Positions 25,764 through 27,671 of a DNA stretch of 64,000 nt are shown in pieces (the first letter of the stretch is position 1; the number at the start of each line of letters is the position of its first letter). A model generated the notes under the pieces. The model did no database searches, was not told where the DNA came from, and saw nothing but the letters and a program-made list of their open reading frames with translations. Where the stretch lies: positions 714,933-778,932 of the forward strand of contig NZ_JAANNP010000001.1 in NCBI RefSeq assembly GCF_011250635.1. The letters are read 5' to 3'. A program made the position numbers and the translations under genes. The stretch is from Motilibacter deserti (GTDB lineage: Bacteria; Actinomycetota; Actinomycetes; Motilibacterales; Motilibacteraceae).

Positions 25764-26048
25764 ATGGCCCTCGACGACAGCGACATCACCGGCAGCTCGG
25801 ACGGCGGAGCGGACGGCGGCGCGCACGGCCCGGCCGACGGCGGCGCGGGCAGCATCCCCGGCGAGCACGACGGCGGCGCCGACGGCGGCGCGGACAGCGG
25901 CGCGCACGGCCCCGCGGACGGCGGCGCCGGCTCCGTGGTCCCCGGGGAGCACGACGGCGGTGCGGACGGCGGCGCCGACTCCGGCGCCGGCGACGGCGGT
26001 GCGGACTCCGGCGCCGGCGACGGCGGCGCCGACAGCTCGGCCTCCTGA
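25764..26048 (+). CDS. Gly/Asp/Ala-rich repeat peptide, possible substrate of the adjacent oxygenase
   Basis: This 94-residue protein has a short leader-like start (MALDDSDITGSS) followed by low-complexity repeats. Two long units of about 25 residues share the pattern DGGADGGA, HGPADGGAGS and PGEH. A tail of DGGADSGAG units follows. Each long unit contains two histidines and prolines inside a Gly/Asp/Ala background. The ATG at 25764 has a good GGAGG. The stop is only 14 bp before the JmjC-type oxygenase gene, implying one transcript. The arrangement resembles a ribosomal peptide precursor with its modifying enzyme. That role is inferred; the protein could instead be a disordered structural peptide. 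Confidence 0.65.
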   Translation: MALDDSDITGSSDGGADGGAHGPADGGAGSIPGEHDGGADGGADSGAHGPADGGAGSVVPGEHDGGADGGADSGAGDGGADSGAGDGGADSSAS

Positions 26049-26062
26049 GCTCCGCGTCCCGC

Positions 26063-27316
26063 ATGACGCAGCTCGTCGACGGCCCGCGCCGGGTGGGATC
26101 CACCTCCCGCCCGGCGCTGGGCCGCTGCATCTCGCTGTCCCCTGAGGAGTTCGCCGCGGACTACTGGGGCCGGTCGGCCCTGCTGACCCGCGCGGACCAG
26201 CTGTCCGGTGGCTTCGCCGACCTGCTCGACCTCGACGCCGTGGACGAGCTCGTCTCGCGGCGCGGGCTGCGCACCCCGTTCCTCCGCGTGGCCAAGGACG
26301 GCCAGGTCATCGACCCCAAGCGGTGGACCGGCGGCGGCGGCGCCGGCGCCGAGGTTGCCGACCAGGTCCAGGACGACGCGCTGACGGCGCTGTTCGCCGA
26401 CGGCGCCTCGCTCGTGCTGCAGGGGCTGCACCGCACCTGGCCGCCGGTCGTGGAGTTCGCCTCCGCGCTCGCGGCCGAGCTGGGGCACCCGGTGCAGGCC
26501 AACGCCTACATCACGCCACCGCAGTCGCGCGGGTTCGACCCGCACTACGACGTCCATGACGTGTTCGTGCTGCAGTTGTCGGGCGAGAAGCGCTGGCGCA
26601 TCCACCGCCCGGTGCTCGAGCACCCGCTGCGCAGCCAACCCTGGACCGACCGCAAGGCCGACGTCGCCGCGCAGGCGGAGGGCGAGCCGTACATCGACAC
26701 GGTCCTGCAGCCCGGTGACGCGCTCTACCTGCCGCGCGGCTGGCTCCACTCGGCCGAGGCGCTCGGCGACGTCTCGGCCCACCTCACGATCGGGATCCAC
26801 ACGGTCACGAGGTACGCCCTGGTCGAGGCCCTCACGGGACTGGCCGCCCGCTCCCCGGAGCTGCGCAGCTCGCTGCCGCTCGGCGTCGACGTGGCCGACC
26901 CCGAGCAGCTGCGCGAGGACCTCGCCGCGACGCTCGACGCCCTCGCCGCGGCCGTGCGCTCCGTCCCGGCCGAGGACGTCGCCGCCCGGCTGCGCCGGAA
27001 GGTGTGGCCGCAGACCCGGCCCGCGCCGGTCTCCCCGCTGCGGCAGGCGGCCGCGGCCCGCGCCGTCACGGCGGACACGGTCGTACGCCTGCGGCCCGCG
27101 CTGCACGCCCGGGTCGTGGATGCGGCCTCACCCGACGACGTGACGCTGCAGCTCTCGGGCCGCCAGCTGACGCTGCCGGGCACGGCCCGTCCCGCCCTCG
27201 AGGCCCTGCTCGCCGGCGAGCCGCTCGCCACCGGTTCGCTGCCCGGTCTCGACGCCGAGGAGGCCGTGGTGCTCGTCGCCCGGCTCCTCAGGGAAGCCGT
27301 CGTCGTCCCCTGCTGA
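26063..27316 (+). CDS. JmjC/ROX-type 2-oxoglutarate-dependent protein hydroxylase
   Basis: This 417-residue protein resembles the ribosomal-oxygenase family (YcfD/ROXA, NO66, MINA53). The Fe(II) triad is visible: His161 and Asp163 in DPHYDVHDVFV and the distal His229 in LPRGWLHSAEA, 66 residues apart as in NO66. QLSGEKRWRIHRP supplies the conserved strand and 2-oxoglutarate contacts. The C-terminal 85 residues (VVRLRPALHARVV and following) match the winged-helix-like end of ROX enzymes. Known members hydroxylate Arg or His of ribosomal proteins. Here the immediate upstream His-containing repeat peptide is a plausible alternative substrate. The ATG at 26063 lacks a strong ribosome site, which fits translational coupling. 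Confidence 0.87.
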   Translation: MTQLVDGPRRVGSTSRPALGRCISLSPEEFAADYWGRSALLTRADQLSGGFADLLDLDAVDELVSRRGLRTPFLRVAKDGQVIDPKRWTGGGGAGAEVADQVQDDALTALFADGASLVLQGLHRTWPPVVEFASALAAELGHPVQANAYITPPQSRGFDPHYDVHDVFVLQLSGEKRWRIHRPVLEHPLRSQPWTDRKADVAAQAEGEPYIDTVLQPGDALYLPRGWLHSAEALGDVSAHLTIGIHTVTRYALVEALTGLAARSPELRSSLPLGVDVADPEQLREDLAATLDALAAAVRSVPAEDVAARLRRKVWPQTRPAPVSPLRQAAAARAVTADTVVRLRPALHARVVDAASPDDVTLQLSGRQLTLPGTARPALEALLAGEPLATGSLPGLDAEEAVVLVARLLREAVVVPC

Positions 27317-27491: not shown

Positions 27492-27671
27492 ATGGCAACG
27501 ACAACCACCGGAGCCGCGGCCACCTCCGCCTCCGACCTCTGCATGGGGCTCCTCGCGGCCGGAGTGCCGCTGTCCCTGATCTGCGACCTGACCGACCCGC
27601 ACATGGCGACGTCACGGGACATCCTCGAGACCGAGGGACGACCGGAGGTCGCTTGGTGGCAGGCGGTCTGA
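27492..27671 (+). CDS. 59-residue small protein, function unknown
   Basis: This small ORF has a clear AGAGG ribosome site 6 bases before ATG 27492. After a Thr/Ala-rich start, the central part LCMGLLAAGVPLSLICDLTDP is amphipathic to hydrophobic and bears two cysteines (Cys17, Cys31). The end has a Trp pair (AWWQAV). The coding look and ribosome site make it likely real, and short actinobacterial proteins of this shape exist. I cannot assign a function. It sits between the structured inverted repeat and tRNA-Lys and may belong with the oxygenase locus. Confidence 0.6.
   Translation: MATTTTGAAATSASDLCMGLLAAGVPLSLICDLTDPHMATSRDILETEGRPEVAWWQAV

Follow-up and report, generated by a model that had tools for sequence, protein, structure and literature searches.

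Ribosomal oxygenases (ROX), namely NO66, MINA53 and YcfD/RoxA, combine a JmjC core that carries an Fe triad and a 2-oxoglutarate (2OG) lysine with a helical middle region and a C-terminal winged helix; they are encoded by genes that stand alone and act on ribosomal proteins. FIH, a JmjC-type hydroxylase of Asn, Asp and His beta-carbons in ankyrin repeats, differs from the system described here in that its targets are folded and it has neither a dedicated peptide nor a winged helix. Closer in logic are BipG, BpmG and PbsQ of the biphenomycin pathways, JmjC/cupin 2OG hydroxylases that modify Orn on a RiPP precursor (PMC12707348, PMC12257519); the Orn is located in a macrocycle core, and the cluster is large, including MNIO, rSAM, arginase and protease genes. 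In addition, fusions of JmjC (PF08007) with an RRE, with bacterial homologues in RiPP-like contexts, have been reported by Bregman et al. 2025 (PMC12710340), whose main text devotes a single passage to them and describes neither a family nor a precursor, Asp repeats or a Suc_Fer gene.

The locus analyzed here belongs to a 64,000-nucleotide stretch of Motilibacter deserti DNA (hereafter, the window). Its oxygenase shares the entire ROX architecture and the catalytic residues, with about 24% identity to NO66, but its gene, unlike the ROX genes, is tied to the gene of a repeat peptide, and a ribosomal substrate is not indicated by the sequences. With BipG, BpmG and PbsQ, this enzyme would have in common that a JmjC/cupin 2OG oxygenase acts on a ribosomal precursor peptide, in this case one that carries Asp repeats and is encoded in a unit of two or three genes; with the fusions, as presented in that single passage, it shares the Pfam domain and, by its predicted order of strands and helices, an RRE-like C-terminal fold. 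We propose, with a probability of roughly 0.6, that the peptide and the oxygenase form a RiPP-like precursor/enzyme pair in which a leader guides hydroxylation of the repeats, most likely on the beta-carbon of Asp. A literature search on the pairing, on Suc_Fer with cupin and on JmjC with RiPPs, with thin coverage of subscription journals and preprints, yielded no description of this family, so that the three-gene Asp-repeat family is provisionally new. An earlier note on this DNA knew of no described family with this pairing, and within this search that held, but JmjC-RiPP hydroxylases and PF08007-RRE fusions are on record.

The gene pair in the window and in close relatives

The features of the locus, all on the forward (+) strand, are as follows.

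25764..26048, +: repeat precursor peptide P0001, 94 aa, ATG 25764 to TGA 26048, RBS TGGAGG
25767..25793, +: leader-like N-terminal motif of the peptide, ALDDSDITG, kept in both peptide subfamilies
25821..25901, +: peptide repeat unit 1, AHGPADGGAGSIPGEHDGGADGGADSG (translation)
25902..25985, +: peptide repeat unit 2, AHGPADGGAGSVVPGEHDGGADGGADSG (translation)
25986..26045, +: short C-terminal repeats of the peptide, AGDGGADSGAGDGGADSSAS (translation)
26063..27316, +: JmjC_2 (cupin-4/ROX-fold) Fe(II)/2-oxoglutarate oxygenase P0002, 417 aa (PF08007, E=7.8e-30)
26486..26809, +: JmjC domain, residues 142-249 (Pfam bounds)
26543-26545, 26549-26551 and 26747-26749, +: Fe triad His161, Asp163 and His229, invariant in 50 sequences
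27080..27310, +: C-terminal winged-helix domain, residues 340-416, candidate leader-binding domain (DSSP of the AlphaFold model)

The peptide, which contains the long repeat AHGPADGGAG(S)..PGEHDGGADGGADSG twice, matches no family in Pfam or NCBIfam. A Shine-Dalgarno-like TGGAGG precedes its start codon, and 14 nt separate its stop codon from the oxygenase ATG at 26063; the earlier description of a 94-residue repeat protein ending 14 bp before an oxygenase was correct in its coordinates and in all its numbers. Farther downstream, a 59-aa ORF (27492-27671, +; LCMxLLAAGxPLSLICDLTD...SRDILExEGRPExAWW) is retained in the relative G001 and matches no Pfam family.

The oxygenase frame extends from ATG 26063 to TGA 27316. 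PF08007 was detected in all 51 family members scanned, whereas the NCBIfam scan of the family gave weak, unrelated matches only. The proposed Fe(II) triad is borne out by an alignment of 50 relatives (with one plasmid-collection row left out), in which H161, D163, H229 and K176 are invariant. The nearest solved sequences are those of the ribosomal histidine hydroxylases NO66 and MINA53. The AlphaFold model (pLDDT 93.4, with the N-terminus of the enzyme modelled alone below 50) displays the full ROX architecture and aligns over its full length with NO66 and YcfD, including the helical dimerisation region and the C-terminal winged helix; the best Foldseek match is NO66 (E=1.4e-27; TMq 0.65-0.71 over the NO66 chains), and FIH is among the matches as well.

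We used the oxygenase to search 84,980 species genomes and inspected the region upstream of each retained match. The 85 close loci, which comprise search matches, the window copy and four relatives of its order, include 84 that can be evaluated (L048 begins at a contig end), and in all 84, from about 26 genera, a repeat ORF lies directly upstream of the oxygenase gene, in L031 in part behind a masked stretch. These genera include Blastococcus, Nocardioides, Agreia, Leifsonia, Curtobacterium, Cellulomonas, Rhodococcus, Gordonia, Dietzia, Mycobacterium and Actinomycetospora. Conversely, the peptide profile (A1) matched 12 of 396 Actinomycetota genomes, each time beside a JmjC gene, and 13 of the 396 encode a close JmjC relative (E<1e-100). 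Chance is ruled out as the cause of this adjacency.

The peptide stop and oxygenase start codons frequently overlap in the close loci, and such overlapping or closely spaced codons indicate translational coupling, as would suit a regulatory upstream reading frame; the ORF could also be taken for an artefact of GC-rich repetitive DNA. However, the repeat ORF is a genuine coding sequence under purifying selection. In 17 close homologous pairs, codons change while amino acids are kept (333 synonymous vs 65 nonsynonymous differences), and codon position 3 accounts for 356 of 436 base changes; moreover, the leader motif is conserved as protein, and in the 396 genomes the profile matches at the peptide-oxygenase locus only. 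A regulatory frame was rejected on the codon differences and is largely refuted, and we assign a negligible probability to either version of this explanation.

Distant relatives and the age of the association

The distant JmjC relatives are mostly 32-42% identical to the window oxygenase and come mostly from other classes of Actinomycetota. Upstream of the oxygenase, 34 of the 37 evaluable loci carry a different Asp-rich repeat ORF, the products of which do not match the close-family peptide profile. These peptides start with L-[TS]-[DE]-x-D-I-x-T-V, in a narrower rendering L-[TS]-[DE]-x-D-I-E-T-V, and continue into a tail of D-A, D-G, D-S or D-T repeats, for example, MSDERNLSEDDIETV...DGDASDTDAADADASDGDASDA. 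The true exceptions are L142 and L148, with no Asp-repeat peptide upstream of the oxygenase, and L151, in which the upstream ORF is acidic but non-repetitive; in L145, a two-unit peptide is present but was at first missed by the search filter, and L167, like L048, begins at a contig end. A short encoded precursor adjoining a modifying enzyme, one of the criteria for RiPPs, is thus found in close and distant loci alike (84/84 and 34/37, respectively). Given that the search for JmjC genes beside Gly/Asp/Ala repeat ORFs in other genomes came out so strongly in favor of co-occurrence, the locus is best read as a modified-peptide system, and the precursor/enzyme pairing is well supported.

When the peptide types are mapped on the oxygenase tree, five labels require only 5 state changes (minimum 4; shuffled mean 28.8), so that the association is old and has for the most part been passed on together with the enzyme. 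This bears on the alternative in which the peptide is an acidic partner, such as an iron carrier, an inhibitor or a scaffold, and the oxygenase targets a ribosomal protein, for instance L16, L27 or L2. The closest solved structures are indeed those of ribosomal oxygenases, and an acidic peptide could deliver Fe(II), but two tail types that track the tree would be unexplained if the substrate were a fixed ribosomal one, and variable repeat copy number is typical of substrates. We consider this alternative very unlikely and favor the peptide as the substrate of the oxygenase.

Leader recognition and the modified residue

Common to the N-termini of the peptides is a motif of the approximate form L-x-(D/E)-x-D-I-x-T. 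In the close family, it takes the form M-x-[IL]-[ND]-D-D-D-[IM]-T-T, commonly M-x-I-N-D-D-D-I-T-T, and both this form and ALDDSDITG of the window look like a shorter version of the motif in the distant peptides. Because the motif is common to peptides with unrelated tails, it fits a leader. The locus L136 provides a natural model, with peptide and oxygenase in one frame, so that its DNA encodes one continuous chain once the TGA between them is translated as a residue. In the AlphaFold model of this read-through product, built from 12 fused rows, leader residues 1-10 have pLDDT 95 and a strand is formed at 12-15, whereas repeat residues 21-56 remain below 50. Judged from pLDDT and the strand, the model is compatible with docking of a leader strand on the oxygenase, with a repeat tail predicted to be disordered.

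The most plausible docking site may be the C-terminal domain. An RRE requires bbb-aaa order (Bregman et al. 2025, PMC12710340), and DSSP assigns to residues 340-416 of the window enzyme the RRE-like succession strand-strand-strand-(strand)-helix-helix-helix, or bbb(b)-aaa; comparison of this domain with four PqqD sequences from the window genome using hhalign was not significant. Taken together with the L136 model, that published rule makes the winged helix a candidate leader-binding domain. Under the proposed mechanism, the N-terminal motif (here ALDDSDITG) would bind the oxygenase, probably at the winged-helix domain, and thereby guide the repeat tail, which lacks structure, to the active site of the JmjC domain, where, with Fe(II), O2 and 2-oxoglutarate, repeat side chains would be hydroxylated, most likely on the Asp beta-carbon.

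The earlier note had proposed that His or Asp of the repeats is hydroxylated. The His version, in which the residue in HGPADGG and PGEHDGG is beta-hydroxylated in the way NO66 and MINA53 modify ribosomal proteins, draws on the fold, which is nearest to those His hydroxylases, and on 259 repeat units in which the position before DGGADG is His in 206; the same position is, however, Ala in 40 and Gln in 10 of these units. Furthermore, the bodies of three Nocardioidaceae peptides and of 26 of the 32 distant peptides contain no His, and the oxygenases of these His-free peptides keep the same catalytic residues, which makes Asp the better candidate and His an unlikely one. Three Asp positions of the pattern ADGG..DGGADGxA are invariant across the 259 units, in part by construction because the units were chosen by a pattern that fixes DGGADG; the same Asp columns are invariant in the A1 peptide alignment, which was built without this pattern. 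The bodies of the distant peptides consist of 34% Asp and otherwise chiefly of Ala, Gly, Thr and Ser. Thus, of the original claim, the pairing as a candidate modified-peptide system stood and Asp gained by its conservation, whereas His, variable or absent, is not supported as the target and ranks below Asp.

Our best guess, which we infer from conservation alone, is that the beta-carbon of the repeat Asp is the hydroxylated position. The invariant Asp could instead serve binding, with Gly, Ala, Ser or Thr oxidised in its place, or the reaction could be a desaturation, a crosslinking or a backbone change. The chemistry of 2OG enzymes is versatile, the four residues are abundant in the peptides, Gly and Ala next to Asp never vary within the close family, and macrocyclisation by a 2OG-dioxygenase has reportedly been observed in RiPPs (by Xia et al. 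in 2025). Against such outcomes, Asp alone is enriched in every peptide type, including those where the Gly or Ala patterns differ, and we regard them as a minority possibility, somewhat ahead of His hydroxylation.

The third gene, the product and additional loci

In 107 of 121 loci, the oxygenase gene is followed within about 2 kb, on the same strand, by a Suc_Fer-like (PF06999) gene, the only gene conserved within 6 kb. The window genome and its near relatives have no such gene next to the oxygenase; the window genome encodes one at another location. The Suc_Fer-like protein is probably a redox partner. Most RiPP clusters include a conserved protease or transporter gene, whereas no such gene is kept near the oxygenase in the peptide-oxygenase loci, which suggests that the peptide product may act inside the cell; proteases and exporters are common in RiPP loci but not obligatory.

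If Asp is the target, the product would be a poly(Asp/beta-hydroxy-Asp) peptide, which is expected to be a strong ligand of hard metals (Fe3+/Ca2+). In siderophores, hydroxyaspartate is known to bind iron, and it also occurs in calcium-binding EGF domains; these precedents, together with the iron-sulfur Suc_Fer-like protein, lead us to guess, by analogy, that the product has an intracellular role in the handling of iron or calcium. The broadest version of the hypothesis, an ancient, phylum-wide class in which leader-guided JmjC enzymes make poly(beta-hydroxyaspartate) that serves, alongside a [2Fe-2S] Suc_Fer-like protein, in the handling of iron or calcium, is tentative, and we judge it considerably less probable than the core proposal of leader-guided repeat hydroxylation. 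Should it be correct, poly(beta-hydroxyaspartate) chains would be the ribosomal counterpart of hydroxyaspartate siderophores. If the core proposal holds, JmjC chemistry would extend to Asp-rich peptides, the winged helix of ROX enzymes would seem to have the same role as the recognition domains of RiPPs, and many actinobacterial proteins annotated as 'cupin domain-containing protein' would become enzymes with a known substrate. The system would also be a simple, two-gene and co-expressible one, with a repetitive target easily read by mass spectrometry, and because mycobacteria, Gordonia, Dietzia, Rhodococcus and Leifsonia carry the family, its role is open to deletion studies in laboratory strains.

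The precursor just upstream of the JmjC gene in L145 consists of two PTEDDENLDAPGEHSQDTGDE units and shares PGEH with the window peptide, even though the L145 oxygenase is only 36% identical to that of the window; the corresponding precursor in L161 (155 aa) has an unrelated repeat unit, SADGTDQGVxGGTYGPRDA. Streptomyces-type JmjC paralogues (L173, L174, L175 and L142) are immediately preceded by an ORF of about 30-45 aa ending in KGDGND or SDGND, possibly another precursor type for this oxygenase family. A cyanobacterial JmjC relative on the Pseudanabaena plasmid pPg_03 (L171) is located near a LanM lanthipeptide synthetase gene; immediately upstream of this relative, a small acidic ORF was not seen. 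On a plasmid of S. clavuligerus (L172:5772-12187), a 48-aa ORF, MDDKKTSLEPDEIEVIPP..., with a similar leader-like motif precedes a JmjC gene, followed by a convergent S9 peptidase gene and an ABC transporter, that is, a RiPP-like cluster with a distant JmjC.
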